A DNA stretch of 34,122 nucleotides, taken from Akkermansia muciniphila (lineage in GTDB: Bacteria > Verrucomicrobiota > Verrucomicrobiia > Chthoniobacterales > Chthoniobacteraceae). The first letter of the stretch is position 1. Each line of letters starts with the position of its first letter. Both the position numbers and the translations under genes were made by a program. Positions 8,055 through 26,495 of the stretch are shown here, piece by piece. The stretch spans positions 1-34,122 of the forward strand of contig CAMCIN010000009.1 in assembly GCA_945874745.1 (NCBI GenBank), in the 5' to 3' direction. The notes beneath the pieces are model-generated. The model was not told where the DNA came from and did no database searches. It saw only the letters and a list, made by a program, of their open reading frames with translations.

Positions 8055-8093
8055 TTCTCAATCTCCTTTCTTTCCACCTTCACTCCTCCTCGT

Positions 8094-8471
8094 ATGTCGT
8101 CGAATCGCCGTAAAAACGCCAATCTGCTGCCGGTCGCAAAGATCCTGCTTGTGGCGATGGTGCTGCTCACCATTGGCGGTGGGGCGCTTTACTATGTGAA
8201 CGCCAAAAACGAGGTGCACCGGTACGGACAGCGCAAGAAGGAGCTGGAGCGGGAACTTTTGGCGGTGGCGACCAAGGACGAGGTCGTGACCTCGCGTATC
8301 TCCAAGCTTTGCTCCTATGAGGCGCTGCGCAAGCGGCAGTCACTTGAGCGCGAAGCTTTCGCCAAGTTGGTTCCCGTTGCGGACACTTTGGTGGTGCGCC
8401 TGCAGGACCGGTTTCTGTCTCCGGTGGAATCTCAGCTGCGTCACGTTTCCAATCCCCAACCGGCACGGTAA
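8094..8471 (+). CDS. ftsL: FtsL-like cell division membrane protein
   Basis: A small bitopic protein of 125 aa lies in the standard ftsL slot between rsmH and ftsI. A basic N-terminus (SSNRRKNAN) precedes one membrane span (about residues 15-34, KILLVAMVLLTIGGGALYYV). A charged, probably coiled-coil periplasmic stretch follows (YGQRKKELERELLAVATKDEV). FtsL proteins link FtsB and FtsQ and activate FtsWI at the septum. Sequence identity in this family is always low, so the name rests on topology, size and position. The upstream region is C/T-rich with no Shine-Dalgarno. The stop codon directly abuts the ftsI ATG. The C-terminal tail after residue 80 has no motif I recognise. Confidence 0.75.
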   Translation: MSSNRRKNANLLPVAKILLVAMVLLTIGGGALYYVNAKNEVHRYGQRKKELERELLAVATKDEVVTSRISKLCSYEALRKRQSLEREAFAKLVPVADTLVVRLQDRFLSPVESQLRHVSNPQPAR

Positions 8472-10265: not shown

Positions 10266-11755
10266 GACTGGATACGCTTTTAAGACAGACGACGGTACAC
10301 TCTGTGCACGGGAACCGGGAGAGCGAGATCTCAGGCGTGTGTGTCGATTCGCGGTTGGCCAAGCCAGGGTCGCTTTTTGTGGCGCTGTCGGGGACTCGCC
10401 TTAAGGGGGAAGATTTCATCCAGGAGGCGGTGGCTCGCGGGGCCTCCGTGGTTGTGGCGGAGCGGCCAGAGGCGCTTTCGGGAAAAAGCGGGGTGACTCT
10501 GGTGGTGGTGGCCGACGCACGGCGGGCGCTTGCCGAGTTGGCCGGCGCCTATTACGAACGGCCTTCTGAAAAGCTGCGCGTGGCCGGTGTCACCGGTACC
10601 AACGGAAAGACCACGACCACCTTCCTCCTCCAGCACATTTGCGACGCGGCCCTCCAGCGTTGCGGCCTGATTGGGACGGTACGCTACCAGGTGGGCGGGC
10701 GCACCTTGCCGGCGGCGCGCACCACGCCGGACGCGCTGGAATTGCAGGACCTCCTTGCCCAGATGCGCGATGCCGGCTGCAAAACGGTGGCCATGGAGGT
10801 CAGTTCCCACGCCATTGCACAGCAACGGGTGCGCGGCATCGAGTTCGACGCGGTGGTGTTTACCAACCTCACCCAGGACCATCTCGATTATCACGGCACG
10901 ATGGACGCCTATTTCGAGACCAAGGCGGGGCTGCTTCTCGGCCTGGGACTGCAGCGCTTCAAACCGGGTGTGGCCGTGATCAATGTGGACGACCGCTACG
11001 GGGCGTTGCTCTACGACCGCGCCCTGCAGGCAGGGGTGCCTGTGATCGCCTATGGGCAGGGCCAGAAAGCGGAGTTTCGCGCCAGCAATTGCCGCACGGA
11101 TGTACAGGGCAGCACCTTCCAACTCGATGCGGTGGGGCGCTCCTGGTTGGTGCGTCTGCCGCTCAGTGGCATGTTTAACATTTCCAACGCTCTCGGCGCT
11201 CTCGCTGCCGCCCACGCCCTGGGGGTGGACGTGCGTACCGCAGTGCTCGCGCTGGCTTCCGCGCCCCCGGTTCCCGGGCGGATGGAGCCGGTGGCAGCCA
11301 AGCGCGCCTTTCGCGTTTTTGTGGATTACGCCCACACCGAAGATGCCCTGCGCACCGTGCTGCGCACCCTTCGCGACCTCCAGCCCAGCCACCTGATCAC
11401 CGTCTTCGGCTGTGGTGGCGACCGGGACAAGGGCAAGCGCCCGCTCATGGGCGCCGCCGCCGAGGAATTTTCGGACTGGACGATTGTAACCTCGGACAAC
11501 CCCCGTTCCGAAAGCCCGGAACAAATCGCAGCCGAGATCACCTGCGGCATGTCCAGGGGCAAGCACGAGGTCGTGCTCGACCGCCGCGCCGCCATTCAAC
11601 GAGCTATCGAGATGGCCGGCCCGCGCGCCATCGTGCTCATTGCCGGCAAGGGGCACGAAACCACGCAGGAGACCGCAGGGAAAACCGAACCCTTCGACGA
11701 CGTGGCCATTGCGCGTTCCGCTCTGGAGAACCTCGAATCAGATTTCGGCCGCTAA
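10262..11755 (+). CDS. murE: UDP-MurNAc-tripeptide synthetase MurE (meso-DAP type)
   Basis: MurE adds the third amino acid to UDP-MurNAc-L-Ala-D-Glu with ATP hydrolysis in the cytoplasm. The 497-aa protein shows the three Mur ligase domains. An N-terminal UDP-binding domain (SGVCVDSRLAKPGSLFVAL) is followed by a central ATPase domain with P-loop VTGTNGKTTTTF near residue 109. The C-terminal domain carries DNPR (SDNPRSE) near residue 413. DNPR is the known signature for meso-diaminopimelate selection, where lysine-adding enzymes differ. TTPDALELQ and EVSSHAIAQQRV are also typical. The start is a GTG overlapping the ftsI stop (GTGA). murF follows after 14 bp. Confidence 0.96.
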   Translation: MRLDTLLRQTTVHSVHGNRESEISGVCVDSRLAKPGSLFVALSGTRLKGEDFIQEAVARGASVVVAERPEALSGKSGVTLVVVADARRALAELAGAYYERPSEKLRVAGVTGTNGKTTTTFLLQHICDAALQRCGLIGTVRYQVGGRTLPAARTTPDALELQDLLAQMRDAGCKTVAMEVSSHAIAQQRVRGIEFDAVVFTNLTQDHLDYHGTMDAYFETKAGLLLGLGLQRFKPGVAVINVDDRYGALLYDRALQAGVPVIAYGQGQKAEFRASNCRTDVQGSTFQLDAVGRSWLVRLPLSGMFNISNALGALAAAHALGVDVRTAVLALASAPPVPGRMEPVAAKRAFRVFVDYAHTEDALRTVLRTLRDLQPSHLITVFGCGGDRDKGKRPLMGAAAEEFSDWTIVTSDNPRSESPEQIAAEITCGMSRGKHEVVLDRRAAIQRAIEMAGPRAIVLIAGKGHETTQETAGKTEPFDDVAIARSALENLESDFGR

Positions 11756-11769
11756 GTGTTGCGAAGCTC

Positions 11770-13131
11770 ATGAACCCAACCACTCTCGAACAGATCGCAG
11801 CATGGGCAGGTGGCCGCCTTTCAGGCGCCCCCGGCGCATCGGTCTGTCGCGTGGTGACGGACTCCCGGGCAATTCAGCCGGGGGATTTGTTTGTGGCGCT
11901 GAAGGGGGAGCGTTTTGACGGGCACGATTTTATCGCTGCGGTGACGGCGCAGGGAGCCGCAGCATGCCTGGTTCAGGCGGGCCTTGGGGAACGGCCTCCG
12001 GGAGTGCATGCGGTGGAGGTGGAGGACACGCTTCTGGCGCTGCAACGCCTTGCCGCAGCCTGGAGGCAGACGCTTCCTGTCCGGGTGGTGGGTATTACCG
12101 GTTCCAGCGGGAAGACTTCCACCAAGGATTTTACACACGCCGTGCTCTCCAGTCGGCTCAAGGGCTGGTGCACCCAAGGCAATCTCAACAATCACATCGG
12201 TGTCCCACTCACCTTGCTTGCCGGCGGTGCGGGCGACGCTTTCGCCGTGGTGGAGATGGGAATGAATCACGCGGGGGAGATCGCCCCGCTGGCAGCGCTA
12301 GCTCGTCCGGAAGTGGGCATCATCACCAATATCGGGGTGGCGCACATCGAATACCTGGGCAACCGGGAAGCCATTGCGCGGGAAAAGGGCGCCCTTGTAG
12401 CGGCCTTGCCCGCGGTAGGCACGGCGGTGCTGCCGGCGGAGGAGGATTTTCTGCCTTTGCTGGAGACACTGGCCACCGGGCGGATTCTCACGGCAGGGCT
12501 CGGGCGCGGGGATGTGCAGGCGGTGGACGTCGCTGCGGTGCAGGGCGGGAGCCGCTTCGGACTGATCCATGAAGGGCAGAGGGTGGAGGTGGAACTGGGC
12601 GTGGCGGGCCTCCACATGGTGCGCAATGCCGCGCTCGCCGCCGCAGCAGCACTTGCTTTGGACCTGCCCCTGGAGGCGGCCGCAGAAGGTCTGCGTGGGA
12701 TGAAGCTCACAAAGGGGCGGATGGAGGCACGGGTGGTTCGAGGGATCGAGTTTCTCGACGATACTTACAACGCGAACCCGGATTCGATGAAGGCCGCGCT
12801 CGCCACGCTGGCACAATGGCCGGCCCGGGGCCGCCGAATCGCGGTGCTGGGACGCATGGGCGAGCTTGGGTCGCATGCACGCGAGGGGCACGCCTCCGTG
12901 GGGCGCGCGGCTGGCGCGGGCATCGACTGGCTGCTCACCGTGGGAGCCGAGGCGGAATGGATAGCGGCAGCGGCGCGCGAGGAAGGCTGTCCGGAGGTTG
13001 CTCACTTTGAGGACACGCAGGCGGCCGCACGCGCTCTTGTCGCGGCGTTGGAAGAGGGGGACGTTGTGTTGGTGAAGGGAAGCCGTTCGGCGCGGATGGA
13101 ACGCGTGATCGAGGAGGTGGCGCTGCTATGA
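11770..13131 (+). CDS. murF: UDP-MurNAc-tripeptide--D-alanyl-D-alanine ligase MurF
   Basis: MurF adds the D-Ala-D-Ala dipeptide made by Ddl to complete UDP-MurNAc-pentapeptide. The 453-aa protein has the usual length. DSRAIQPGDLFVALKG marks the N-terminal domain. GITGSSGKTSTKD (about residues 106-118) is the P-loop, in the MurF form with SS in place of TN. NLNNHIGVPLTLL and EMGMNHAGEIAPL are strong MurF signatures, and DDTYNANPDSM lies in the C-terminal half. No Shine-Dalgarno is obvious before the ATG. The gene overlaps mraY by 4 bp (ATGA). The substrate chain is consistent with MurE and Ddl in the same cluster. Confidence 0.96.
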   Translation: MNPTTLEQIAAWAGGRLSGAPGASVCRVVTDSRAIQPGDLFVALKGERFDGHDFIAAVTAQGAAACLVQAGLGERPPGVHAVEVEDTLLALQRLAAAWRQTLPVRVVGITGSSGKTSTKDFTHAVLSSRLKGWCTQGNLNNHIGVPLTLLAGGAGDAFAVVEMGMNHAGEIAPLAALARPEVGIITNIGVAHIEYLGNREAIAREKGALVAALPAVGTAVLPAEEDFLPLLETLATGRILTAGLGRGDVQAVDVAAVQGGSRFGLIHEGQRVEVELGVAGLHMVRNAALAAAAALALDLPLEAAAEGLRGMKLTKGRMEARVVRGIEFLDDTYNANPDSMKAALATLAQWPARGRRIAVLGRMGELGSHAREGHASVGRAAGAGIDWLLTVGAEAEWIAAAAREEGCPEVAHFEDTQAAARALVAALEEGDVVLVKGSRSARMERVIEEVALL

Positions 13132-14258
13132 TGTACTACCTGTACAAGCTGAGCGAAGGAGGCCCGGACTGGATGCACGGCTTCAACGTGCTGCAATACA
13201 TTTCCTTCCGCGCAGTGGCGGCGGCCGTTACAGCGTTCCTGCTGTGCATTCTGCTGGGAGACTGGGTCATCCGGAAGTTGATTTCCCTCAAGGTCGGCCA
13301 GCCGATCCGCACAGCGGAGGAGGTGCACAAGCTGTTTGAGCTGCACGGCAAAAAGGCGGGCACCCCCACCATGGGGGGCGTCTTGATTCACGGCGCCGTG
13401 ATTTGTTCCACGCTGATTTGGGCGCGTACGGACAATTCAGCGGTCTGGCTGCTGGTTTTTACCATCGTCGCTTGTGGGCTGCTCGGATTCTGGGACGACT
13501 GGCTCAAGGTGAGCAAAAAGAACTCCGGGGGCATCAGCGAGCGCACAAAGCTGCTGGGCCAGTTCGCTGTGGCAGCCGTGGTGGCCTGCTTTTTTCTGAC
13601 AAACCCCGCCACCGAGGTGCAGGCCAGAGCACTGTATGTGCCGTTTTACAAGGCGCCCGTCATTGAGAACCTGGGCTGGTGGTCCGTGGTGTTTTTCGCG
13701 CTCGTCATCGTGGGCACCTCCAACGCGGTAAACCTCACTGACGGCCTCGACGGCCTCGCCGCAGGCTGCACTGCGACCTCGGCCCTCGCCTACAGCGTGA
13801 TCGCCTATGCGGCTGGAAACGTCAAAATCGCGCAGTACCTCCAGATCCCGTACTATCCGTTCGCGGGGGAGCTGAGTATTGTTTGTCTGGCGCTTGCGGG
13901 TGCTTCGATCGGTTTTTTGTGGTTCAACGCGCATCCGGCGCGCGTCTTCATGGGAGACACTGGATCGCTCGCCATCGGCGGCCTGTTGGGGGTGGTGGCG
14001 ATCTGTTGCAAGCAGGAGCTGCTCCTGGTGCTGGTGGGAGGGATTTTTGTGATCGAGGCGACATCAGTGCTCATCCAGCGGGTTGTCTTCAAACTGACAA
14101 AACGCCTCTACGGAGAGGGGCGGCGCGTGTTCCGGATGTCCCCCATCCACCACCATTTTGAGCTTCAGGGCTGGCCGGAAAACGTGGTCATCGTCCGATT
14201 CTGGATCATGAGTATCCTCTTTGCGCTCCTTGGCCTCGCAACCCTCAAACTGAGATGA
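13128..14258 (+). CDS. mraY: Phospho-MurNAc-pentapeptide transferase MraY
   Basis: MraY transfers phospho-MurNAc-pentapeptide onto undecaprenyl phosphate to make lipid I at the inner face of the membrane. The 376-aa polytopic protein has about ten hydrophobic segments. Key residues are present: the aspartate pair in [23 protein letters not shown], the Mg-binding region [19 protein letters not shown], and the histidine motif [14 protein letters not shown] near the C-terminus. GTPTMGGV near residue 82 is also diagnostic. The start overlaps the murF stop (ATGATG), so initiation could be at either of two adjacent ATG codons. The end overlaps murD by 4 bp. Confidence 0.97.
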
Positions 14259-15625
14259 ACGCCGCCGAATTCAACGCTCTACCAGTTGCCGTTTTGGGCG
14301 CAGGCGAAAGCGGTGTAGCCGCTGCCTTGCTGCTTGCCGCCGAGGGCGTGCCGGTGAGCGTTTTCGATACAGCTTCCCGCGAAAAGCTGGGAGCGCGTGC
14401 GCACGAGCTTTCCGCAGCAGGAATTCCCCTGACCTGCGGTGCGGAAACGGTGGTCGTTCCCGAGCGGGCGAGGCTTGCGGTGTTGAGTCCAGGCATCGCA
14501 CCTGACAGCGAGCTGGTGCGGCGTTTCACTGCGGCGGGAGTGCCCTTGCAGGGAGAGTTGGAGTTTGCTTTCCAACGTTGCGAATGCCCCGTCGTGGCGA
14601 TCACCGGCACCAACGGCAAGACCACCACCACCCAATTGCTCGAGGTGCTGTTTAACGGAGCCGGCGCCCCGACCAAGGCTTGCGGCAACATCAGCCCCGC
14701 ATTCTCAAGCTGTGTCGACCAAAGCGCCTCCCTCGCGCTCATGACGGTTGAAGTGTCTTCGTTCCAGCTGGAAACCATTTCGACCTTCCGCCCCAAGATC
14801 GCCGTGTGGCTAAACTTTGCGCCTGATCACCTCGACCGTTACCGCTCGCTGGAGGAATACCGCGCGGCAAAGCTGAGGGTGTTTGAGAACCAACAGGGGT
14901 CGGATTGGGCTGTGGTGAACAAGCTCGACACTATTTCAGGCCTGCGAGCGAAAACGCTGACTTTCAGCGCCTATGAAAGGGGCGGTGATTTTGAGTTGTC
15001 GGAGGGTGCGATTCTCTTCCGGGGGACGCCGGTGCTGCGGATGGCTGACACACAACTTCGGGGGCTTCACAACGCGGAAAACCTGATGGCAGCGCTGGCA
15101 GCGGGCCACGCCTGGGGGCTCGACTGGGAGGCGATGCGGGCACCGCTTTGCGGGTACCGTAGTCTGCCACACCGCTGTGAGGTCGTCGGCTCGCTCGACG
15201 CGGTCGAGTACGTGAACGACTCCAAGGCGACCAATCTGGACGCTCTCGAAAAGGCACTTCAAAGCGAGGCGCGCCCAGTGGTTTTGATCGCCGGCGGCAA
15301 GGACAAGGGTTTCGAGTTTGACTCCCTGACCGAGCTGGTGGGCAAACGTTGCCGGAGCGCAGTGCTCATTGGAGAAATGGCCGCCCGAATCCAGTCCCAG
15401 TGGGAGCATGCCCTTCCGTGCCACCGAGCGGGCACCCTTTCCGAAGCGGTCTCCTGCGCGCGTTCCGCCGCACGGGCAGGGGACGTTGTTTTGTTCAGTC
15501 CCGGCACCTCTTCTTTTGACATGTTCCGCAGTTACGCCGACCGAGGAAACCAGTTCCGCGCACTTGTGCAGGGCCTTCCCAGTCGCAGCCAACCGCTGGA
15601 GCTGCCTGCCCTTTTGTCCCGCTAG
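14255..15625 (+). CDS. murD: UDP-MurNAc-L-alanine--D-glutamate ligase MurD
   Basis: MurD adds D-glutamate to UDP-MurNAc-L-Ala using ATP. The 456-aa protein begins with a Rossmann-like domain (VAVLGAGESGVAAALLLAAEG), unlike MurE and MurF. The ATPase P-loop ITGTNGKTTTTQLLE is near residue 115, followed by the MurD-typical GNISPAF and VEVSSFQLETI. NFAPDHLDRY and VNDSKATNLDA complete the family set. The C-terminus contains VVLIAGGKDKGFEF and LFSPGTSSFDMFRSYADRGNQF, both close to the classical MurD ending. It overlaps mraY by 4 bp. A 51-bp C-rich gap separates it from the LysM gene, so an internal promoter or processing site there is possible. Confidence 0.97.
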   Translation: MNAAEFNALPVAVLGAGESGVAAALLLAAEGVPVSVFDTASREKLGARAHELSAAGIPLTCGAETVVVPERARLAVLSPGIAPDSELVRRFTAAGVPLQGELEFAFQRCECPVVAITGTNGKTTTTQLLEVLFNGAGAPTKACGNISPAFSSCVDQSASLALMTVEVSSFQLETISTFRPKIAVWLNFAPDHLDRYRSLEEYRAAKLRVFENQQGSDWAVVNKLDTISGLRAKTLTFSAYERGGDFELSEGAILFRGTPVLRMADTQLRGLHNAENLMAALAAGHAWGLDWEAMRAPLCGYRSLPHRCEVVGSLDAVEYVNDSKATNLDALEKALQSEARPVVLIAGGKDKGFEFDSLTELVGKRCRSAVLIGEMAARIQSQWEHALPCHRAGTLSEAVSCARSAARAGDVVLFSPGTSSFDMFRSYADRGNQFRALVQGLPSRSQPLELPALLSR

Positions 15626-15676
15626 AAAGTCCCACACACTCCAAACGCCCCAACCATCGCCCCAGTCCGCCGCCCC

Positions 15677-16414
15677 ATGAAAAAGTTCAAACTGCTGAGC
15701 CTGAAATCTCTGGTTCCCCAGTCCAAAGTCGCCAATCAACGCAAGCCAGTCACCCGTCTGGCTGCGCGTCTCACGCAACCCGCCTACGACGATTACGAGG
15801 AAGAGCCCACCACGAAGCTCTCCACCGCATTTGTGGTGGTGCTGGTGTTGCACCTTGTTGCTGTCGGTGGAATCTACGCCTTCCACAGCATTAAGACCAA
15901 GCGCCGGGAGGCGGATGGCACAGCACTCACCGCGAGTGTAACCTCCCCAAAAGAGATGGCAGTCAAGGCCGAGACAGCGGCAAAGGCTCCGCCGCTCGCC
16001 CCCACGCACGCGCCGGCACCAGTCGCGCCAGCCGTTGCCTCGCCTGGGGCCGCGGTGGCCGCAAAGGGCGCCGCAGCGCAGCCCTTGGAAAAAGTACCGG
16101 CCGGTCCTTCTGCGGTAGTGCCGCAGCCTGCGAAGCCCGCACCAGCGGCTGGTGGCGCAGCGCAGGCGGGGGGGGCGGCAACGGCGAAGACCGCGAAGGC
16201 AGGGGTGGCTCCGGTGGCTGCTCCCGGTGCCTCTGGTGAAGCGACAGTCAAAACGTATACGGTCCAGAAGGGGGACAACCCGGTGGCGATCGCCAAGCGG
16301 ATGGGCGTGAATTACGACGATTTGCTCAAGATCAACGGGGTTGACGATCCCAAACGGCTTAAGATTGGGCAGGTCTTGAAATTGCCGGTACGCACCAAAC
16401 CCTCGGCAAACTAG
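15677..16414 (+). CDS. Membrane-anchored LysM-domain protein
   Basis: This 245-aa protein sits between murD and ftsW, where standard dcw clusters have no gene. A basic cytoplasmic N-terminus of about 50 residues precedes one membrane span (about 51-70, TAFVVVLVLHLVAVGGIYAF). A low-complexity Ala/Pro/Val linker of roughly 110 residues follows, then a C-terminal LysM module (YTVQKGDNPVAIAKRMGV...LLKINGVDDPKRLKIGQVLKLP, about residues 193-238). LysM domains bind N-acetylglucosamine-containing glycans, so the protein likely reaches peptidoglycan from the inner membrane. No catalytic domain is present. Context suggests a division or septal wall-binding factor, a role comparable to but not homologous with SPOR proteins; this is inference. 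The ATG lacks a Shine-Dalgarno. Confidence 0.88.
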   Translation: MKKFKLLSLKSLVPQSKVANQRKPVTRLAARLTQPAYDDYEEEPTTKLSTAFVVVLVLHLVAVGGIYAFHSIKTKRREADGTALTASVTSPKEMAVKAETAAKAPPLAPTHAPAPVAPAVASPGAAVAAKGAAAQPLEKVPAGPSAVVPQPAKPAPAAGGAAQAGGAATAKTAKAGVAPVAAPGASGEATVKTYTVQKGDNPVAIAKRMGVNYDDLLKINGVDDPKRLKIGQVLKLPVRTKPSAN

Positions 16415-16422
16415 GGTCTCAA

Positions 16423-16446
16423 GCGCGCCCGTTCACGCAGGCGCGC
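16423..16446 (+). other. GC-rich hairpin between the LysM gene and ftsW
   Basis: Perfect 7-bp arms GCGCGCC and GGCGCGC enclose a 10-nt loop, 9 bp after the LysM stop and 34 bp before the ftsW start. No T-tract follows, so it is unlikely to be a strong terminator. It could stabilise or partially attenuate the transcript between the murD-LysM and ftsW-murG parts of the cluster. Confidence 0.4.
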
Positions 16447-16480
16447 GCCCGACTCGAGATCCAAACCCAGGCAAACACCG

Positions 16481-17635
16481 ATGAATCGCCGGAGTGTTTT
16501 AGTGCTGTTACTGGCAGTGGGCGGTCTGCTGGCTGTGGGGATCGTCATGTTGGCCAGCACTGGTGAGTTCGCAGAGGACGCCCACGGGAGGCCGTACTTC
16601 TTCCTCTACCACCAGCTCGGTTGGCTAGCGGTTGGAAGCATTGTGTGTTGGTGTGTGTCCCGGGTGGACTACCACATCTGGATCAAAAATTGGCGCTGGA
16701 TTTACATCGCGGCGCTGGTGCTGCTCGTGTTGTGTTTTATTCCCCCAATCGGGGCGCGGATCAACGGCTCCTCGCGCTGGATCCGTCTCGGGATTGGAAC
16801 CTTCCAGCCCTCAGAACTGGCAAAGTTTGCGGCTGTGACCATGTTGGCGTGGTGGTTTTCCCGGGAGGAGCGAGTGGAGGAGCAAAAGCTCAAGGGGTTT
16901 GTGGTACCCCTCGGTCTGGTGAGCGCGCTCATGCTACTCATTGTGCTGGAGGTGGACGTGGGTTCCACTGCGCTCATTGGCGCCACCACGTTGGTGATCA
17001 TGATTGTGGCTGGTTCCCCGCTGAAGTTCATCCTCCCCGTCATCGGATTTGGAGTGAGTGTCATTGTCGGGGCGATCCTCATGATGCCTGAGCGCATGGG
17101 CCGGTTCCTCGCGTTTATGCACCCCGAACGCTACCCCAAGGATGCCTACCAGACTGAGCAGGGGCTCATCGCCCTTGGCAGTGGGGGGATTTCGGGGTTG
17201 GGGCTTGGCAACGGCCGGCAAAAGCTCCTCTACCTCCCGTTTGCGCACACCGACTTTATTTTCCCAGTCATCGGCGAGGAGCTTGGGCTGGCGGGAACCC
17301 TGGGCATCGTGCTGGCCTACATTCTCTTCATCCTCGGCGGAGTCACCATTGCGGTGAAGGCGCGCGACAGGGCGGGGCTGCTCTTTGGAATGGGGATCGT
17401 GATGATCATCGCTACTCAGGCCGCGGTGAACCTTGGCGTCACGACGCAGCTGCTGCCCAACAAAGGCTTGCCGCTCCCCTTCATCTCGTACGGCGGTTCC
17501 AACCTGCTTTTTTGTATGGCCTGTGTGGGCGTGCTCATCAACATCTACCGCCAGGGACTGACCGAGCAGGAGGAGGAGCAAATGGAGCAGCTCGAGCTGG
17601 TGCTGCAATCCGAGCGGAGGCCGGTCAGGCTTTAA
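16481..17635 (+). CDS. ftsW: Septal peptidoglycan polymerase FtsW (SEDS family)
   Basis: FtsW is the SEDS-family glycosyltransferase that polymerises lipid II at the septum with FtsI. The 384-aa protein has about ten membrane spans. NGSSRWIRLGIGTFQPSELAK near residues 92-112 is the SEDS signature. LPFAHTDFIFPVIGEELGL holds the essential aspartate, and LPLPFISYGGSN lies near the C-terminus. EQGLIALGSGGISGLGLGNG is also characteristic. A RodA assignment is possible by sequence alone, but position between murD and murG and beside ftsI makes FtsW much more likely. The cytoplasmic tail is Glu/Gln-rich. The ATG lacks a Shine-Dalgarno and follows a GC-rich hairpin; murG starts 1 nt after the stop. 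Confidence 0.94.
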   Translation: MNRRSVLVLLLAVGGLLAVGIVMLASTGEFAEDAHGRPYFFLYHQLGWLAVGSIVCWCVSRVDYHIWIKNWRWIYIAALVLLVLCFIPPIGARINGSSRWIRLGIGTFQPSELAKFAAVTMLAWWFSREERVEEQKLKGFVVPLGLVSALMLLIVLEVDVGSTALIGATTLVIMIVAGSPLKFILPVIGFGVSVIVGAILMMPERMGRFLAFMHPERYPKDAYQTEQGLIALGSGGISGLGLGNGRQKLLYLPFAHTDFIFPVIGEELGLAGTLGIVLAYILFILGGVTIAVKARDRAGLLFGMGIVMIIATQAAVNLGVTTQLLPNKGLPLPFISYGGSNLLFCMACVGVLINIYRQGLTEQEEEQMEQLELVLQSERRPVRL

Positions 17636-17636
17636 T

Positions 17637-18740
17637 ATGAAGCGCTTTGCCATCGCTGCAGGCGGGACAGGCGGCCACCTCTTTCCGGGGTTGGCTGTTG
17701 CTGAGGTATTGCATTCCTGGGGGCACCAAGTGTTGCTGCTGACATCCGAAAAACACATTGATGCAGTCGCAACCGAGGGGCGCTCCGAATTTCAAATTGC
17801 GCGTCTTCCGGGGATGGGGCTGCCTCGCGGGATCACCCTCCAAACAGTCAAGTTTCTCGCCCGATTTGCCCGTGGGATTCTGCACTGCCGCAGCCTTTTT
17901 GCCGAGTTCCAGCCCGCGGCAGTTTTGGGCATGGGCGGCTTTACCTCAATCGCGCCCATTCTGGCCGGCCGGTTGAGCGGGTTGCCCGTCTTCGTGCACG
18001 AATCCAACGCGATTCCCGGCAAGGCGAACCGGCTCAACGCCCGTCTCGCCGGCAGTTGGCTCACCGGCTTTGAGGAGTGCGCGCTTCAAATTCCCTCGGT
18101 GCCCTGCACCGTTACAGGCACCCCAGTGCGCAGCGCCTTTTTGCAGCACCCTTCCAAGACGGAAGCCCTCCGGAAATTCGGCCTCTCCCCAGACCGTAAG
18201 ACCGTCCTTGTCATGGGCGGCAGCCAGGGCGCCGCGGGCGTCAACATGGCTGTGATGCAGGCCGCTGTAAATCTGGCCTCCGCCGGTTATCAGTTTTTGC
18301 ACATCACCGGCGCGGCCGACGAGCAGGCGGTCGCCGCATTTTATCGGAACGCGGGGATTCCCGCCTGGACCGCGGCCTTCCACCACGCGATGCAGGACGC
18401 CTACAGCGCGGCTGACATTGCGGTTGCCCGTTCCGGCGCGGCGAGCCTCACAGAGCTCTCTTTCTTTGGGCTGCCTTCGATTCTGATTCCGTACCCTTTT
18501 GCCGCCGAGGATCACCAGACTTGTAACGCCAAGGTTTTCAGTAAAGTCGGCGCGGCGCTTTTGGTACAGGAGCGCGAGGCCACCGGCCCTTTTTTGGCGG
18601 CCGAGATCCAACGGATTTTGGAGGACCCCCAGGGGCTGGCCAAAATGAAGGAGGCCTGCCGGGCTCTTTACAAAGGCGACGCGGCGGAGCGGGTGGCCAA
18701 GGTTTTGGTGAACGCCGCAGAAGGGAGGTCGAGCAAATGA
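17637..18740 (+). CDS. murG: UDP-GlcNAc:lipid I N-acetylglucosaminyltransferase MurG
   Basis: MurG adds GlcNAc from UDP-GlcNAc to lipid I to form lipid II on the cytoplasmic face of the membrane. The 367-aa GT-B protein begins with the glycine-rich loop AAGGTGGHLFPGLAVAEVL. The MGGFTS and VHESNAIPGKANR segments are typical of the N-terminal domain. In the C-terminal domain MGGSQGAAGVN is the second glycine loop. RSGAASLTELSFFGLPSILIPYPFAAEDHQ is the UDP-GlcNAc-binding region, here with AEDHQ where many homologues have ADDHQ. The ATG is 1 nt after the ftsW stop and the end overlaps murC-murB by 4 bp. Confidence 0.96.
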   Translation: MKRFAIAAGGTGGHLFPGLAVAEVLHSWGHQVLLLTSEKHIDAVATEGRSEFQIARLPGMGLPRGITLQTVKFLARFARGILHCRSLFAEFQPAAVLGMGGFTSIAPILAGRLSGLPVFVHESNAIPGKANRLNARLAGSWLTGFEECALQIPSVPCTVTGTPVRSAFLQHPSKTEALRKFGLSPDRKTVLVMGGSQGAAGVNMAVMQAAVNLASAGYQFLHITGAADEQAVAAFYRNAGIPAWTAAFHHAMQDAYSAADIAVARSGAASLTELSFFGLPSILIPYPFAAEDHQTCNAKVFSKVGAALLVQEREATGPFLAAEIQRILEDPQGLAKMKEACRALYKGDAAERVAKVLVNAAEGRSSK

Positions 18741-21085
18741 GCACGTTCCCGACTGATCTCCAGCAAGGAGTATCCCAAGGAAAAACAACGGAGGCCGGAG
18801 AGCTGGGACGTTGGCTGGAGGGAGGGTCGCGGCGGATCCACCTCATCGGAGTGGCAGGCTCAGGGATGAGCGGAATCGCCGCACTGTTGCTGGAACTGGG
18901 ACACCACGTGAGCGGTTCCGACAAGGCAAGCACGGTGGAGGTTGAGCGGTTGCGCACTGCCGGGTTGGATTTTTATTCCCCCTCAAACGCAGCGGCGGCG
19001 GGGGCCGCAGAACTGGTGGTCTACTCGTCGGCGATTCGTGCGGAGCACCCGGATTTCGCGGCGGCAACCGGCTTGGCGGTGCGGTTGGTGCGCCGGGCCG
19101 AGGCGCTGGCGGCGATGCTGGGGACGCGCCGCGGGGTGGTGGTGGCGGGCATGCACGGGAAAACGACCACCTCGGCGATGGCTGCGCATGTGCTGCGGGC
19201 CGGGGGGCTGAATCCCTCCCACTATGTGGGTGCCGAGATCCCGGTTTTGGGCACCAACGCGCATTGGAACACGCAGGGAGAATGGTTTGTGGCCGAGGGT
19301 GATGAAAGCGACGGAACGCTGGCCTTGTATGAAACCGAGCACTCCATCGTGCTTAACGTCGAGGAAGAGCATCTGGACTACTACCAGGACATCGACGCGA
19401 TCGACGTGGTCTTTCGGCAACTCCTCGCCCACACCCGGGGAAAGGTTTTCTTTTGCGCCGATGACGCCCATGCCACGCGGCTTTGCGCGGGCCGCGAGGG
19501 GGCGATCTCCTACGGGGAGCGTTCCACGTCTTTCTATCGGTTTGATGATCTCCATCTCAAGCCGTTCCAAAGCCATTTCCGGGTGGTCCGCGACGGGCAG
19601 GCTCTCGGCGCAGTCACCTTGAATATTCCAGGGCGCCACAACGCGAGCAACGCAGTGAGCGTCGTTGCGCTTGCCACGGAATTGGGCGTGCCGTTTGCCG
19701 AGATCGCACGCGCGCTTGAGAGTTTCCGCGGGGCAAAACGGCGGTTTGAAATCAAGTACCGCTCTTCCAAGTACATGGTGGTGGACGACTACGGGCACCA
19801 TCCCACCGAGGTGCGCGCAACCCTTGCCGCGGCGCGCAACGCTGGCGCGGGGAGGTTGCTTGTGGTGTTTCAACCGCACCGCTACAGCCGGACCGTGGCC
19901 CTCAAGGAGGAGTTTGGCCGCGCCTTTTCGGATGCTGCAGAAGTCTGGGTGACGGCGATCTATGCCGCCAGCGAGCAGCCCTTGGAGGGGGTCAGTGGAG
20001 AGCTGTTGGTCGAGGAGATCCGGCGCGACGGCCATCCCGCCGTCAACTACCAGCCCGACCGTGCAAGCCTCCTACTTGAGGTTGGCAGAAGCCTCCGGCC
20101 TGGCGATTGCGTCCTGACTCTCGGCGCGGGGAACATCCACGAACAGGCGGCAAATCTCTCCCGCGACCTCTCGGTGCTGGAGGCGCTCCAGCAGGCTATG
20201 GGCCCGGGCGAGGCCCGCCTGTATGAGCCCCTTTCAAAGCACACCACCCTGCGCATCGGCGGGCCCGCCCAGTATTGGCTCGAGCCCGAAACGGAGGAGG
20301 GTTTTGCGCGGGTGGTTCGGTATTGCCATGCCGAGGGGGTGCCCCTTTTTGTGATTGGCCGTGGCTCCAATCTTCTGGTTCGAGACGGCGGCATCCGGGG
20401 CGTGGTCGTTTATTTGGGGCGTGGGGAGTTCAAGCATCTGGAGGTGCGAGGCTCCCAGATCACGGCGGGTGCCGGCGTGAGACAAAAGGAACTGGCGCTC
20501 GCCGCAAGGGATGCTGGGCTCGGTGGGTTTGAGTGGTTCGAAGGCATTCCGGGGAATGTCGGGGGAGCGCTTCGGATGAACGCGGGCGCCATGGGGGCGG
20601 AGGCCTTTGGGCAGGTGGTGAGCATGCGGTACGTCGACAGCGAGGGCGAATTCCACACGCGGACTCCCGCCGAGATCGAGGTGCACTACCGGAACGTGCC
20701 TTTTCTCAGGCAGAACTACGCGGTGTCCGCCACCTTCTTCGGGGAGGCGAGTGCTCCCGAACAGATCGAGGAGCGCTTGGAGGCGTCCATTCGAAAGCGG
20801 CGAAGCTCCCAGCCGCGCGAGTCCAGTGCGGGCTGTATTTTCAAAAACCCGGCGGAACTGCCTGCGGGGAGGCTCATCGAAGAGCTCGGACTCAAGGGAA
20901 GCCGCTCCGGCGGGGCGAAGGTTTCTGAGGTGCATGGAAACTTTTTGGTCAACGAGCGGGATGCGACCGCAGGCGAGATGCTGGCGTTGATCGCAAAGGT
21001 ACAGGAGACAGCGTTCTTAAAACGCGGAATCCAGCTGGAGACAGAAGTGCAAATCGTAGGAGAAGAGAAAGTTGCATATGCTTGA
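18737..21085 (+). CDS. murC-murB: MurC-MurB fusion: UDP-MurNAc--L-alanine ligase / UDP-GlcNAc-enolpyruvate reductase
   Basis: A single 782-aa frame carries two enzymes of adjacent steps: MurB makes UDP-MurNAc and MurC adds L-alanine. MurC occupies about residues 30-475, with HLIGVAGSGMSGIAALL, the P-loop GMHGKTTTSAMAAHVL (about 138), EEEHLDYYQDID and DDYGHHPTEV. After a short join, MurB runs from about 485 to the end: KHTTLRIGGPAQYW, GRGSNLLVRDGG (FAD binding), EGIPGNVGGALRMNAGA, VHYRNVPF and SAGCIFKNP. It lacks the tyrosine loop of E. coli-type MurB, so it looks like type II. The residue matching the catalytic serine is Cys700. I see no frameshift or stop at the join. A MurB/MurC fusion has been described, as I recall, in Verrucomicrobium spinosum, which supports the phylum call. 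Confidence 0.95.
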   Translation: MSTFPTDLQQGVSQGKTTEAGELGRWLEGGSRRIHLIGVAGSGMSGIAALLLELGHHVSGSDKASTVEVERLRTAGLDFYSPSNAAAAGAAELVVYSSAIRAEHPDFAAATGLAVRLVRRAEALAAMLGTRRGVVVAGMHGKTTTSAMAAHVLRAGGLNPSHYVGAEIPVLGTNAHWNTQGEWFVAEGDESDGTLALYETEHSIVLNVEEEHLDYYQDIDAIDVVFRQLLAHTRGKVFFCADDAHATRLCAGREGAISYGERSTSFYRFDDLHLKPFQSHFRVVRDGQALGAVTLNIPGRHNASNAVSVVALATELGVPFAEIARALESFRGAKRRFEIKYRSSKYMVVDDYGHHPTEVRATLAAARNAGAGRLLVVFQPHRYSRTVALKEEFGRAFSDAAEVWVTAIYAASEQPLEGVSGELLVEEIRRDGHPAVNYQPDRASLLLEVGRSLRPGDCVLTLGAGNIHEQAANLSRDLSVLEALQQAMGPGEARLYEPLSKHTTLRIGGPAQYWLEPETEEGFARVVRYCHAEGVPLFVIGRGSNLLVRDGGIRGVVVYLGRGEFKHLEVRGSQITAGAGVRQKELALAARDAGLGGFEWFEGIPGNVGGALRMNAGAMGAEAFGQVVSMRYVDSEGEFHTRTPAEIEVHYRNVPFLRQNYAVSATFFGEASAPEQIEERLEASIRKRRSSQPRESSAGCIFKNPAELPAGRLIEELGLKGSRSGGAKVSEVHGNFLVNERDATAGEMLALIAKVQETAFLKRGIQLETEVQIVGEEKVAYA

Positions 21086-22022
21086 GGTAGCCAAAAACGA
21101 TCAAGGCCTGCGTGGCAGGCGCATTGCGGTGCTCATGGGCGGCCCTGGGTCAGAGCGGCCCGTCTCGCTGGCCTCTGGGGCCGGGGTGGCTGCGGCTTTG
21201 CGCAGTCTTGGGGCGGAGGTTTGCGAGGTGGACGTGCGGGACGCCGGTTTTGTGGTGCCTGAGGGCGTCGAGCTGGCGTTCAACGTCATTCATGGGACCT
21301 TTGGGGAGGACGGGCAGGTGCAGCGGATTTTGGAGGCGCGGGGCATCGCGTACACCGGCGAAGGCGTGGCTGGCAGCGAGCTGGCGATTGATAAAATCGC
21401 GACCAAACAGCGCCTGCTTGAGCACGGGGTGCCCACGGCTGCCTTTGAGGTCTTGCTGCCCGGCGAACGGCCGACGCTCCCTCTGCCCTACGTGCTCAAG
21501 GCTCCCAAAGAGGGCTCCAGCGTGGGGGTCTACATTGTCCGGGAGGCTGCGGAGGTCGAGGCGCGCCTTGCCGAAGTGCGTGGTTACGCAGACGAGATCT
21601 TGGTGGAAGCGTTCGTGGCGGGCCGCGAACTGACGGTCGGAATTCTGGGGAACCGCCCGCTGCCGGTGGTGGAGATTTGCCCGAAGGAGGGCTTTTACGA
21701 TTTCCAAAACAAATACCCCTTCTTAAACCCGCAGGCCGCGGGCGCCGACCACTGGTGCCCTGCAGATCTGGAGGAGGCGGTCGCCCGTGAGGTGCAGCAG
21801 ATCGCGTTTGCCGCCAACCGGGCGCTGGGACTTGAGGTCTACTGCAGGGTCGACATCCTTTTGGATGCGCAGAACCGACCGGTCGTGCTTGAGATAAATA
21901 CAATTCCGGGTATGACGCAGGTCAGCCTTTTGCCCGAGGCCGCGGCCGCCGCAGGAATCTCTTACGCCGCTCTCTGCGCAGAAGTTATATCTCTTTCTGA
22001 ACGAAGACTTTCTCTCAAATGA
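21072..22022 (+). CDS. ddl: D-alanine--D-alanine ligase
   Basis: Ddl joins two D-alanines with ATP; MurF uses the product. The 316-aa ATP-grasp protein shows VLMGGPGSERPVSLASG at the N-terminus, FNVIHGTFGEDGQVQ, YTGEGVAGSELAIDKIATK, LKAPKEGSSVGVYIV, EAFVAGRELTVGILG, and the C-terminal metal-binding LEINTIPGMTQVSLLPEAA. All are characteristic. The ORF track opens at a TTG (21072) that lies 9 nt after AGGAG and overlaps murC-murB by 14 bp. An ATG at 21078 (MLEVAKN) is the alternative and gives an 8-bp overlap. This is one of the few genes here with a good Shine-Dalgarno. It overlaps ftsQ by 4 bp. Confidence 0.96.
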   Translation: MHMLEVAKNDQGLRGRRIAVLMGGPGSERPVSLASGAGVAAALRSLGAEVCEVDVRDAGFVVPEGVELAFNVIHGTFGEDGQVQRILEARGIAYTGEGVAGSELAIDKIATKQRLLEHGVPTAAFEVLLPGERPTLPLPYVLKAPKEGSSVGVYIVREAAEVEARLAEVRGYADEILVEAFVAGRELTVGILGNRPLPVVEICPKEGFYDFQNKYPFLNPQAAGADHWCPADLEEAVAREVQQIAFAANRALGLEVYCRVDILLDAQNRPVVLEINTIPGMTQVSLLPEAAAAAGISYAALCAEVISLSERRLSLK

Positions 22023-23485
22023 GCTTCTTCTCCACTCCCACCTCGAATCGCCGCATCAAACACGGCAGGGAAAAGCGCGCCGCCAACATGTTGGAGGTCA
22101 GCACGCGGCCAAACCGGGAGAACCGCCTGCAGATGCGGCGCAGCTTCTCCACGATTGTGAAGATCCTTCTGGTGGTCGGCCTGATTGCGGGCGTCGCACT
22201 GGGCGGGCGGGGCATGGTCAACCGGTTTGTTTGGGAGAATCCCGCCTACGCGCTGGCTGACATCCGCGTGTCTACGGACGGGCTGCTCACACGGGTCCAG
22301 GTGTTGGAATTGCTCGAAGTGTGGGAGGGGAAAAACATCTTTACCTTGGATATCTCCAAAATGAGGCGGGAACTCGACGCCCTGCCGCAGGTGGAGAAGG
22401 CCGACATCCGCCGGCAGCTGCCCGACCGCCTCGAGATCCGGATCTCCGAGCGGCAACCCGTGGCGTGGGTGGCTGCTTCCGCCGAGGCGGAACTTGGGGT
22501 GGGAGTCGCCTCTCTTTTGGTCGACACCCGCGGGTTTGTGATGCGCACCCGCAAGGTGCTGCCCGAGCATCTGGCTTTGCCGCGCATCATAGGCGTGGTG
22601 ATGGAAGACGTGGCACCCGGCCAGAAGCTCCCCACCGCGGAAGCGCTCTCAGCCCTTGAGCTCATCAAGCTGAGCGTGGAGGACCTGCGCTGGCAGCCCA
22701 GAGTCGTGGATGTCAGCAAGGGTTACTGCCTTCTGGTGACGGACGATCACCGGGCTCGGGTGACCTTTGGCTTCGACAACATCGAGGGCCAGCTGGGCCG
22801 GTTGCGCCAGCTTATGGATTATGTCGAACCCCAGAACCGCGAGTTGCAGTCGGTCAACCTGATGCTTGAGCGTAATATTCCTGTCGTGTTTGCCGCGCCG
22901 CCAACGCCGCCGACCCTCCCCGTCATTGATCCGAAAACCGGCAAGCCAAAGCTTGGAGTGAAGGGCGCGCCCGTCGCCCAGGCACTCCCTTTTTCAGGTG
23001 GCATTTCCGGCGGTGTCGTCCAGTCGGCTGCGTCTCCCCAGGCAACGCCCACCCGGAGCGAGCCAACGTCGGGAACGCTCCCCGCAGCCAAATCTGTTTC
23101 TGCTTCCACCGGGGCCTCCTCCACCCGTCCGCAGCCCAAGCGCATTCCAGAGCTTGAAGCTGCGCCCCCAAAAAAGGCTCAACCCGAATCTGAACGGATT
23201 TTGAAGATGGCCAAAGTGAGCGAGCCTGCCGCGCCTGTCCGCCAGAAAGAGGTGCCGGAAAAGCCTGCCCGCCGAAAAGTCGAGCGGGACGAGGAAGAGG
23301 AGGACGCGCCCAAGCGCCCGGTGAAGGCCGTGCGTCCAATCGAGCCGCCGCCAAAAGCCGCGCCCCGGGCCAAGCCGGTCTCCCCGAGCACTCCAGAGCC
23401 CCCGCCCCGGGCCGTTCCGTCCGCCGCACCTCCAAGCGTGTCGCCCAGTGAGTCATTAAGAAAACTTTTCAACCCCCATGGCTAG
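22019..23485 (+). CDS. ftsQ: Cell division protein FtsQ with long disordered C-terminal tail
   Basis: FtsQ is a bitopic division protein that recruits FtsL/FtsB. A basic cytoplasmic N-terminus is followed by one membrane span (about residues 46-63, TIVKILLVVGLIAGVALG). A POTRA domain comes next, beginning near YALADIRVSTDGLLTRVQVLELLEVWEGKNIFTLD (cut into several strands and helices). A FtsQ-type beta domain runs to about residue 285, including LPDRLEIRISERQPVAW. From about 290 to 488 the protein is Pro/Ala/Lys/Arg/Glu-rich and apparently disordered. The total of 488 aa is well above the usual 250-300. The tail has a basic-acidic patch (RRKVERDEEEEDAPKRP). ATGA overlap with ddl; 8-bp overlap with ftsA. 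Confidence 0.9.
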   Translation: MSFFSTPTSNRRIKHGREKRAANMLEVSTRPNRENRLQMRRSFSTIVKILLVVGLIAGVALGGRGMVNRFVWENPAYALADIRVSTDGLLTRVQVLELLEVWEGKNIFTLDISKMRRELDALPQVEKADIRRQLPDRLEIRISERQPVAWVAASAEAELGVGVASLLVDTRGFVMRTRKVLPEHLALPRIIGVVMEDVAPGQKLPTAEALSALELIKLSVEDLRWQPRVVDVSKGYCLLVTDDHRARVTFGFDNIEGQLGRLRQLMDYVEPQNRELQSVNLMLERNIPVVFAAPPTPPTLPVIDPKTGKPKLGVKGAPVAQALPFSGGISGGVVQSAASPQATPTRSEPTSGTLPAAKSVSASTGASSTRPQPKRIPELEAAPPKKAQPESERILKMAKVSEPAAPVRQKEVPEKPARRKVERDEEEEDAPKRPVKAVRPIEPPPKAAPRAKPVSPSTPEPPPRAVPSAAPPSVSPSESLRKLFNPHG

Positions 23486-24683
23486 AGAGCAGATCGTTGT
23501 CGGACTTGAAATCGGCACTTCCAAGATTGCCGCGGTAGTGGGCGATGTCCGGCCAGACCAGCCCCTGCGGATTTTGGGCGTAGGGCTCACTCCCTCGCGC
23601 GGGGTGCGCAAGGGGGAGATTGTCGATTTGGACACTGCTTCGCGGTGCGTACGCGACGCGCTTGCCGATGCCGAGACCGCCAGCGACGTGGACATCCGCT
23701 CTGTGTACCTAGGCGTTTCAGGGGCGCACATCCGCTCCTTTCAGAGCCGGGGTTCGGTGCTGATTCCCGAGGACCAGGGGGAGGTGTATATGGAACACAT
23801 CCACCAGGTGCAGGAGGATGCTCGCCACGTGCAGCTCCCCCCGGACCAGTGCTTTCTGCACACAATCTTGCAGCACTACTACGTCGACGGGCAGGATGAG
23901 GTGCTCAATCCTGTCGGCCTCCAGGGCGGACGGCTTGAGGCGGACTTCCAGATCGTCCATGGCGCCATCAAGCGGATCAGCAATTCCATCCGTTGCGTGC
24001 GTGAACTCGGAGTGGAGGTGACCCACCCGGTTTTCAATGGGGTGGCGGCTGCGCAGGTGGTGCTTAATGCCGACCAGAAAAACGCGGGCGCCGTCATGAT
24101 CGACATGGGCGGCGGCACCACCGATTACGTCGCTTATAACCACGGTGCGGTACGGGCCTGCGGCAGCATTGCCCTGGGTGGCGACCATATCACCAACGAC
24201 ATCTCGCTTGGGGTGCGCATTCCCATGGCTCGGGCCGAGTGGCTCAAGGTCAATGAGGGCGGCGTGCTGCTTTCGGGTGAACCTGCGGAGGGGCGGGTGG
24301 TTTTGAAGCCAGAGGCAGGGTTCGCTGGGTGCTCTATCGAGCGCAAGCTGCTCAATACGATCATCGCCTGCCGCGTGCGGGAGACCTTCGAACTGGTCAA
24401 ACGCGAACTGGATACGGCGCGCGCCTTCAAGTACCTAGGCGGCGGCATTCTGCTAACCGGTGGGTGTAGCCTGCTCGAGGGGATAGACGAGCTTGCCGGA
24501 GAGGTCTTCGGCGTGCCAGTGCGGCTCACCCATGCGCATGCCGTGTCCGGACCCGCCTCCGCCTTTGAGAACCCCCAGCTCTCGGCCGCCATCGGGCTCA
24601 TCAAGTACGCGCAAGCCATGCAGCCGGAGCCCAGCGTGAAGCCGTTGCGGAAGTTTTTCGGCCGTTTTCTCTCCGGCCGCTGA
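23478..24683 (+). CDS. ftsA: Cell division protein FtsA
   Basis: FtsA is an actin-like ATPase that tethers FtsZ filaments to the membrane. The 401-aa protein begins with the phosphate-1 loop VGLEIGTSKIAAVVGDV. The SHS2/1C insertion region includes VDIRSVYLGVSGAHIRSF. MIDMGGGTTDYVAYNHG (about 205-221) is the phosphate-2 motif, and YLGGGILLTGGCSLLEGIDELA is the adenosine motif. The C-terminus PLRKFFGRFLSGR can form an amphipathic helix with basic and aromatic faces, as expected for the membrane-targeting sequence. The start overlaps ftsQ by 8 bp. A 117-bp pyrimidine-rich gap before ftsZ may hold an extra promoter. Presence beside FtsZ with an intact C-terminal peptide fits a working FtsA-FtsZ pair. 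Confidence 0.95.
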   Translation: MAREQIVVGLEIGTSKIAAVVGDVRPDQPLRILGVGLTPSRGVRKGEIVDLDTASRCVRDALADAETASDVDIRSVYLGVSGAHIRSFQSRGSVLIPEDQGEVYMEHIHQVQEDARHVQLPPDQCFLHTILQHYYVDGQDEVLNPVGLQGGRLEADFQIVHGAIKRISNSIRCVRELGVEVTHPVFNGVAAAQVVLNADQKNAGAVMIDMGGGTTDYVAYNHGAVRACGSIALGGDHITNDISLGVRIPMARAEWLKVNEGGVLLSGEPAEGRVVLKPEAGFAGCSIERKLLNTIIACRVRETFELVKRELDTARAFKYLGGGILLTGGCSLLEGIDELAGEVFGVPVRLTHAHAVSGPASAFENPQLSAAIGLIKYAQAMQPEPSVKPLRKFFGRFLSGR

Positions 24684-24800: not shown

Positions 24801-26495
24801 ATGATTGAGCTTACGCGAACCCACGAACTCCACTCCGATTGGAAGGTCAAAGTCCTTGGCGTCGGCGGCGCGGGCACCCACGCCGTGGACCGACTCAACC
24901 GCGATGGACTCTCCGGTATTGAATTGCTCGTTGCCAACACGGATGCGCGCGCATTAAGCACCTCGTTTACGACCGAGCGGATCTCTTTGGGCCAGGCTCT
25001 CACCAGAGGGCTGGGCGCGGGCGGGGATCCGGAACTGGGACGGACGGCGGCCCTTGAATCCAGCTCCACGCTGGGTGAGCGCCTCGCGGGCGCCTCGCTG
25101 GTTGTGCTGCTGGTCGGACTAGGCGGAGGGACCGGCTCCGGCGCGGCTCCCTGTATCGCGCAGATTGCCAGGGCACAGGGTGCGCATGTTGCCGTCTTCG
25201 CCACCCTGCCCTTTTCCTTTGAAGGCCGCCGGCGCAGGGAGCAGGCCTTGGAGGCCCTCGACGCTCTGCGCCGGGAGGCAGACCTGGTCATTTGTTTTGA
25301 GAACGACCGCATGTCCACTGTGGCAGACCCTGCCAGTGGGATTGAGGACGCGTTCCAGAGCGTCGACTCTCTGCTTGCCCAGTCGGTGCGCGCTCTTGCC
25401 TCCATGACGCGCCGCAGGAATGTCCTCCACAGCGGCCTGGATGAAATTGCCGCGACTGTCGCCGGCCCCAGGTGCACCGCTTTGTTTGGCTACGGCGCAG
25501 CCGATGGCGAGGAGCGCGCGCGCGCTGCCGTGGTGCGAGCCTTTTCCAACCCCCTACTCAATTTTGACGGTGCAGTGGACTCCATTGCCAGTCTCTGGGT
25601 TTATGTCGCCGGCGGCTCGGATATGCGCTTTTCCGAAGTCCAAAACCTCATGCAGGAGGTGGCTGGACGCATTCCGCCGGACTTGCGCCTCTATTTTGGG
25701 GCTGCGGTGGACCCCCAGATGGAAGGCGCCATCTCCGTGACGCTCCTCGCTGGGATCCCCTGGGCGGACGCACCTGCCGCCATTCCGGCGGTCCGGTCGC
25801 TTGTGCAGACTCCCGTTTTTGTCCCGGCCATGGCGCCCTTGCCTGCCGGTCCGGTTGCGCACCCGCAGGTTTCCGTGCGCTCGGAGCCTGAGCCGCTTTT
25901 TGTACCCGAGCCGGAGCCCGCTGCCGAGGCGGTGTGGACCCCGGTGTCCTCCAGCGAGCCCGAGCCTCTCTTTGTGCCGCCGCCGTTTCAGTCTGCGGGG
26001 CTTCCGGAAGCGGCTCTTTTTGAGCCTGAACCCATGGTGCTGGAGGCATACGAGTCCGTGGTGGAGCCCGAGGCGGCCCCGGCCACGTTGCGCAACGTGC
26101 CGACTCCTCCTTTCGAGCTTTCGAAGGAGCGCAGGCGGGAGGCAGCCACCTCGCTGCCACTGGATCCTCTCCCACCTATCGCCGATTTTGTGCCTGAGGC
26201 AACGCCGGTGAAGCAGGCTGAGCCTTTGTGGGAACCCGTTCTGCCGTTAGAGGTGGAGGCGGCGCCCGCTGATCCTCTGCCAAGCGCTGCGCCGCTGCTC
26301 GAAACGAGGGCCGCCGAAGTGCAGGAATCTCCGCAGGAAGCGATTGCGCGCAAGGCGAAGGAGAACGTGCAGGAACAGATGCGCTTTGAGCCGGTCAACC
26401 GGGGCAGATTTGAAAAGACGGATCCCACCATCGTCGACGGTGAGGACCTCGACGTGCCGACCTTCATGCGGCAGGGGGTCCCACTCGAGCCCTAA
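24801..26495 (+). CDS. ftsZ: Cell division protein FtsZ, divergent, with long linker
   Basis: FtsZ is the tubulin-like GTPase that forms the division ring. The 564-aa protein has the nucleotide-binding set VLGVGGAGTHAVDRL, NTDARAL, the tubulin loop GLGGGTGSGAAP (GGGTGSG instead of GGGTGTG), LPFSFEGRRR and FENDRM. The T7 synergy loop, normally NxDxxD, reads VLHSGLDEIA, so by the left-anchored alignment the residues are H210, G212 and E215. A one-residue insertion follows. Residues from about 333 to 545 form a long Pro/Glu/Ala linker with repeated EPEPLFVP-like phrases. The last residues, LDVPTFMRQG, match the conserved FtsA-binding peptide (DIPxFLR). Complete architecture argues for function; the loop argues for unusual GTPase properties. 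It is the only ftsZ in the window. Confidence 0.93.
   Translation: MIELTRTHELHSDWKVKVLGVGGAGTHAVDRLNRDGLSGIELLVANTDARALSTSFTTERISLGQALTRGLGAGGDPELGRTAALESSSTLGERLAGASLVVLLVGLGGGTGSGAAPCIAQIARAQGAHVAVFATLPFSFEGRRRREQALEALDALRREADLVICFENDRMSTVADPASGIEDAFQSVDSLLAQSVRALASMTRRRNVLHSGLDEIAATVAGPRCTALFGYGAADGEERARAAVVRAFSNPLLNFDGAVDSIASLWVYVAGGSDMRFSEVQNLMQEVAGRIPPDLRLYFGAAVDPQMEGAISVTLLAGIPWADAPAAIPAVRSLVQTPVFVPAMAPLPAGPVAHPQVSVRSEPEPLFVPEPEPAAEAVWTPVSSSEPEPLFVPPPFQSAGLPEAALFEPEPMVLEAYESVVEPEAAPATLRNVPTPPFELSKERRREAATSLPLDPLPPIADFVPEATPVKQAEPLWEPVLPLEVEAAPADPLPSAAPLLETRAAEVQESPQEAIARKAKENVQEQMRFEPVNRGRFEKTDPTIVDGEDLDVPTFMRQGVPLEP

Follow-up and report, generated by a model that had tools for sequence, protein, structure and literature searches.

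The FtsZ protein encoded in the window, the 34,122-nucleotide stretch of contig CAMCIN010000009.1 analyzed here, carries a glycine at the position of D210, a catalytic aspartate of the canonical T7 loop, and a glutamate at the position of the second T7 aspartate, D213. The gene is a single copy under purifying selection, and the replacement of D210 is common to all sampled members of a clade made up of Chthoniobacterales and Verrucomicrobiales. Judging from these residues and from their distribution, the gene probably encodes a working cell-division FtsZ with a one-acid, lineage-specific T7 half-site.

The ftsZ gene and its product

The ftsZ gene sits in an ordinary dcw cluster that runs from rsmH to ddl and adjoins ftsQ-ftsA (Table 1). 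Within this cluster, murC and murB are fused into one ORF of 782 aa (MurC at residues 33-474, MurB at 490-778), as reported in V. spinosum, a LysM-domain protein is encoded between murD and ftsW, and the ftsQ product has a long C-terminal extension rich in Pro, Lys and Glu. Elsewhere in the window, we observed an ORF of 1089 aa with 37 ALTTAQ repeat stretches, as well as a DUF1552 (HXXSHH) ORF and a sulfatase ORF whose listed coordinates share 259 bases; the DUF1552 ORF probably starts further in than listed.

Table 1. Features of the window and codons of interest in ftsZ (residues of the window protein; equivalent positions in S. aureus/B. subtilis numbering).
Feature	Coordinates	Strand	Description
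ORF with ALTTAQ repeats	39-3308	+
rsmH, ftsI-like PBP, murE, murF, mraY, murD, LysM ORF, ftsW, murG, murC-murB fusion, ddl	7056..22022	+	remaining dcw cluster
LysM-domain protein	15677-16414	+
murC-murB fusion	18737-21085	+
ftsQ	22019..23485	+	PF08478 POTRA_1
ftsA	23478..24683	+	PF14450, PF02491; immediately 5′ of ftsZ
ftsZ	24801..26495	+	ORF of 564 aa; single copy
R50 codon	24948..24950	+	position of the K+-locking Q48
R145 codon	25233..25235	+	R143 (arginine-finger-like), conserved
T7 loop and start of helix H8	25422..25448	+	V-L-H-S-G-L-D-E-I in place of NxDxxD
H210 codon	25428-25430	+	CAC; position of N208
G212 codon	25434..25436	+	GGC; position of catalytic D210 (S. aureus numbering)
D214 codon	25440..25442	+	GAT; position 212 (A212 in B. 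subtilis)
E215 codon	25443..25445	+	GAA; acid at the position of D213
C-terminal conserved peptide region	26439..26477	+	GEDLDVPTFMRQG
DUF1552 ORF	27267-28787	-
Sulfatase ORF	28529-29968	-

The product comprises a GTPase domain (residues 15-175) and an FtsZ_C domain (residues 226-317), followed by an acidic and Pro-rich linker of about 240 aa. It scores above the cut-offs of both PF00091 (130.2 bits, cut-off 33) and PF12327 (58.1 bits, cut-off 27). Its score of 233.6 bits against TIGR00065, the ftsZ equivalog model, is under the cut-off of 295.2, a shortfall that we attribute to the divergence of the phylum because just 14 of the 145 genomes from the phylum reach that cut-off. The nucleotide-binding motifs GGGTGSG, GAGGDP, PFSFEGRRR and ENDR are present (tubulin signature GGGTG[ST]G; T1, T3, T5 and T6), the motifs of loops T1 and T3 to T6 are kept, D46 and R143 are also there, and the C-terminal FtsA-binding peptide reads DVPTFMR; the GTP-binding loops and the C-terminal peptide had been described as intact in the earlier note, made from the sequence of the window. 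The AF2 model (pLDDT 87) adopts an FtsZ fold and finds its best fold match in Staphylococcus aureus FtsZ (SaFtsZ; 7ohk, E 2.9e-35). A search for a second FtsZ, which the same note had proposed, detected none in the 94%-complete genome, where PF00091 gives one match only. Nearly all of the 57 relatives and 145 phylum genomes also have one FtsZ-family match; in the phylum search, G064, G096, G108, G125 and G136 gave very divergent FtsZ matches (E about 1e-12 to 1e-20) over the GTPase-domain part only. By its domains, motifs, fold, dcw location, single copy and FtsA-binding peptide, the protein is FtsZ.

The T7 loop lacks one acid in an unshifted register

In SaFtsZ filaments, D210 rotates and thereby places the catalytic water, which D213 and G72 hold, N208 touches both the Mg2+ shell and K+, Q48 locks K+ against the T7 loop, and R143 is arginine-finger-like (PMC8936486). 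The D210N, D213N and N208L substitutions stop assembly, Q48A and R143K proteins assemble with reduced GTPase activity, and the same study describes D210, D213 and N208 as conserved among species and as indispensable to the FtsZ proteins of S. aureus and E. coli (PMC8936486). Loss of D210 is hence a serious change on paper, given that SaFtsZ mutants at this residue fail to assemble.

With canonical T7 numbering (N208/D210/D213) taken from B. subtilis and S. aureus, HMMER aligned NVLHSGLDEIA with AVINVDFADVR of Aquifex (2r6r) and GLINLDFADVK of B. subtilis (2vam), the motif being free of gaps. This alignment pairs N208, D210 and D213 with H210, G212 and E215, as the earlier note had proposed, and a larger MAFFT alignment gave the same columns. 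The window FtsZ accordingly departs from the canonical N208-x-D210-x-x-D213 motif and reads H-x-G-x-x-E; in addition to what had been noticed before, the equivalent of Q48 is R50. The view that the T7 motif is lost stands for D210, whose equivalent is Gly, and is too strong for D213, whose position is occupied by the acidic E215. Placement of D214 and E215 in the catalytic position, which had been considered as a counter-argument to that view, was found in part, E215 lying at D213 and D214 just before it.

The register of the alignment is fixed by the Akkermansiaceae rows, which keep the Asn: they read GLINVGLDEL against the canonical GLINLDFADV, with Gly for D210 and Asp for A212. AF2 placed helix H8 alike in the window protein and in a canonical control (pLDDT 93): it begins one residue past position 210 and has the same last residue in both. 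These models, in which positions were mapped by residue offset, are monomers and silent on the filament interface. One extra residue after T7, already reported, is real; it is located in the H8-S7 loop, after helix H8, and is common to other Verrucomicrobiia. A right-anchored alignment of the T7 segment is ruled out by this location. A register shift that would bring D214 into the D210 slot is ruled out as well: the GLI(N/H/R) anchor is conserved, and H8 starts at equal positions in the two models. As aligned and modeled, the window FtsZ has lost only one catalytic acid, with E215 in the D213 slot and no shift of register.

Loss of D210 is common to a verrucomicrobial clade and probably ancestral

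Our FtsZ survey covered 57 relatives, 145 phylum genomes and 80 named loci, and the tree was built from 222 rows without the T7 columns and positions 46-49. The window FtsZ, whose relatives are by name Chthoniobacteraceae/Spartobacteria (nearest named relative, MAG RH-23may17-999, with an FtsZ core identity of 91%), belongs to a clade of Chthoniobacterales and Verrucomicrobiales that contains 120 of these rows (FastTree support 99), the other 102 being outside; the corresponding 43-row clade has an SH-aLRT of 99 in a 66-row IQ-TREE C20 analysis. Counted in rows, which are sequences and not independent events, position 210 is Asp in 0/120 members of the clade (Gly in 105, Ser in 6, Thr in 6, Ala in 3), position 213 is Asp or Glu in 119/120 and R143 is kept in 119/119. 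The window FtsZ has the same combination of a missing D210, an acid at 213 and R143. What had been termed a degenerate T7 loop is thus a conserved trait and not the degeneration of one gene.

T7 states are lineage-specific across the sampled FtsZ rows. Only two changes, at the root of the clade and in L085, are needed to explain the presence of D210 on the 66-row tree. The Opitutae-like rows (L056-L067, L207-L214) are also one T7 acid short but in mirror image, with D210 kept and D213 replaced by Thr, Ala or Ser (NLDFATL, NVDFTAL). Neither acid is found in only 3/222 rows, L141 and L137 outside the clade and L034 inside it, and the named loci from other phyla keep both in 11/11 cases. L137 and L141 are fast-evolving, and L034 reads HAGFAQV. 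The loss of D210 across the clade points to an ancient and stable change in the division-ring engine, not to a broken gene.

Loss of D210 is tracked by an Asp at position 212, which is present in 99/120 clade rows versus 0/102 rows outside. The catalytic Asp could thus have moved by two positions, D214 (at 212) replacing D210 in a site with two acids and near-normal hydrolysis, a possibility that we consider unlikely. Against it, H8 of the AF2 model starts as in the control, with position 212 as its second residue and the 210 slot just before the helix. Asp at 212 is moreover missing in Verrucomicrobium-like rows (L194, L071, L193) and in several faster-evolving lineages; the T7 loop of Verrucomicrobium sp. 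BvORR034 (L194), the row nearest V. spinosum among the named loci, reads RMGIADL. A simple displacement of the aspartate is insufficient, part of the clade being without D212. Furthermore, the swap is essentially a single event, which renders independent-pair tests of 210 and 212 powerless; our correlated-evolution tests of 210 with 212, 213 and 48, with only three supported independent pairs, likewise had no power.

Position 48 is Arg in every sampled row of the window's genus. Arg at this position was also observed in Akkermansiaceae/Verrucomicrobiaceae rows (L150-L197), and Gln in most other Chthoniobacterales rows. At least one basic residue (H/R/K at 208 or R/K at 48) occurs in 97/120 clade rows versus 30/102 outside, and neither in 23/120. 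Such a distribution is only suggestive of a tethered cation, formed by the basic residues at 208 or 48, in place of K+. A further-reaching reading, in which the site of the clade would have been re-engineered around one T7 acid (D/E213), the neighbor's R143 and a tethered cation at 208/48 that replaces both K+ and D210, resulting in a K+-independent and differently paced FtsZ, strikes us as doubtful.

A proposed mechanism for the one-acid site

In the scenario that we favor, that of a working FtsZ with a single T7 acid, D210 would have been replaced in the ancestor that Chthoniobacterales and Verrucomicrobiales share, by Gly in most lineages. The acid at 213 (now Asp or Glu) and the R143, D46 and G72 of the neighboring subunit would have been retained, and an additional Asp at 212 usually gained. 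GTP binding and head-to-tail assembly would broadly follow the normal pattern. The incoming subunit would, through its T7 loop, still bring E215 beside the gamma-phosphate and the neighbor's R145, and E215, perhaps aided by D214, would orient the attacking water in the stead of D210. Where Q48 is Arg and N208 is His, as in the window's genus, these residues could supply a tethered positive charge that replaces the K+ of the T7 loop. We infer that the window FtsZ hydrolyzes GTP, most likely with E215 and the neighbor's R145 as the catalytic pair, and possibly more slowly or with an altered cation dependence. D214 may help catalysis in this protein, D212 not being a clade-wide feature.

Altered hydrolysis, as put forward in the earlier note, is a fair prediction since the residue equivalent to the water-placing D210 of SaFtsZ is Gly. 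The consequences could even go beyond slowing, as Gly at 210 could abolish dynamics altogether, given that D210N and N208L abolish assembly of SaFtsZ. It is therefore conceivable, albeit improbable in our opinion, that the clade assembles a slow or non-hydrolyzing polymer whose turnover and constriction depend on other factors, with GTP hydrolysis largely dispensable. This interpretation draws on the role of D210 as the swinging catalytic residue, the substitution of which by Asn suppresses SaFtsZ assembly (PMC8936486), and on the FtsZ of Ca. Thiosymbion oneisti, a natural low-GTPase protein (PMC8953583). The window FtsZ may share this low activity, but the catalytic T7 residues of the Ca. Thiosymbion oneisti protein are conserved (PMC8953583). 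On the contrary, retention across the clade of R143, D46, the T3 and T4 loops and the acid at 213 would be unexpected if hydrolysis mattered no longer, which speaks against a dispensable GTPase.

The motif HSG(L/I)DEI is also found in independently assembled relatives, the nearest of which (L144) is 91% identical, and is thus neither a chance occurrence nor an assembly error. Over 305 codons, the window and L144 differ with a dN of 0.048 and a dS of 0.668 (dN/dS about 0.07), a strong purifying selection that argues against decay, and the H, S, G, D and E codons of T7 show synonymous changes only in a comparison of six same-genus relatives. L033, which diverges most among the rows of this genus, has SGGIAEI. 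A pseudogene or assembly error is ruled out by the identical motif of the relatives together with purifying selection; more generally, a decaying gene, paralogue or assembly error confined to the window genome, which the TIGR00065 score beneath the equivalog cut-off might have suggested, is extremely improbable for a single-copy gene whose T7 motif recurs in nearly all same-genus relatives, in a phylum most of which is itself under that cut-off.

Comparison with known FtsZ proteins and significance

The window FtsZ shares with canonical FtsZ of S. aureus and B. subtilis (7ohk, 2vxy) its fold (TM 0.83-0.86), nucleotide-binding loops, D46, R143, the acid at 213 and the C-terminal peptide, and differs from it by Gly for D210, His for N208, Arg for Q48, the extra Asp at 212 and the additional residue in the H8-S7 loop. 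The FtsZ proteins of Verrucomicrobium, Prosthecobacter and Akkermansiaceae, from the same clade, have likewise lost D210, kept the acid at 213 and a long C-terminal linker, but carry R, K or N at 208 and may have Ala at 212 (L194). A related arrangement exists in alpha-tubulin, whose T7 loop places a catalytic glutamate, E254, at the position equivalent to D213, as an acid beside the neighboring nucleotide. Unlike the window FtsZ, alpha-tubulin retains Asp at the position equivalent to D210.

Divergence of verrucomicrobial FtsZ was already known (PMC1845146, PMC9871819, PMC2474590), and in V. spinosum, which belongs to the Verrucomicrobiales, ftsZ is an essential gene (PMC12283558). Yee 2007 called the V. 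spinosum FtsZ canonical, with divergence at eight otherwise conserved positions, and says nothing of the T7 loop, GTPase activity or catalytic residues (PMC1845146). We found neither a discussion of the T7 motif of verrucomicrobial FtsZ, which may nevertheless have been noticed earlier, nor a GTPase measurement of any such protein in the literature searched.

A whole clade, including Akkermansiaceae, Luteolibacter, Prosthecobacter and Verrucomicrobium, is without D210, and a sister group is without D213. Both lineages are natural experiments on the acid that FtsZ requires to hydrolyze GTP, assemble and treadmill. Genetic tools for putting this requirement to the test exist in V. spinosum.
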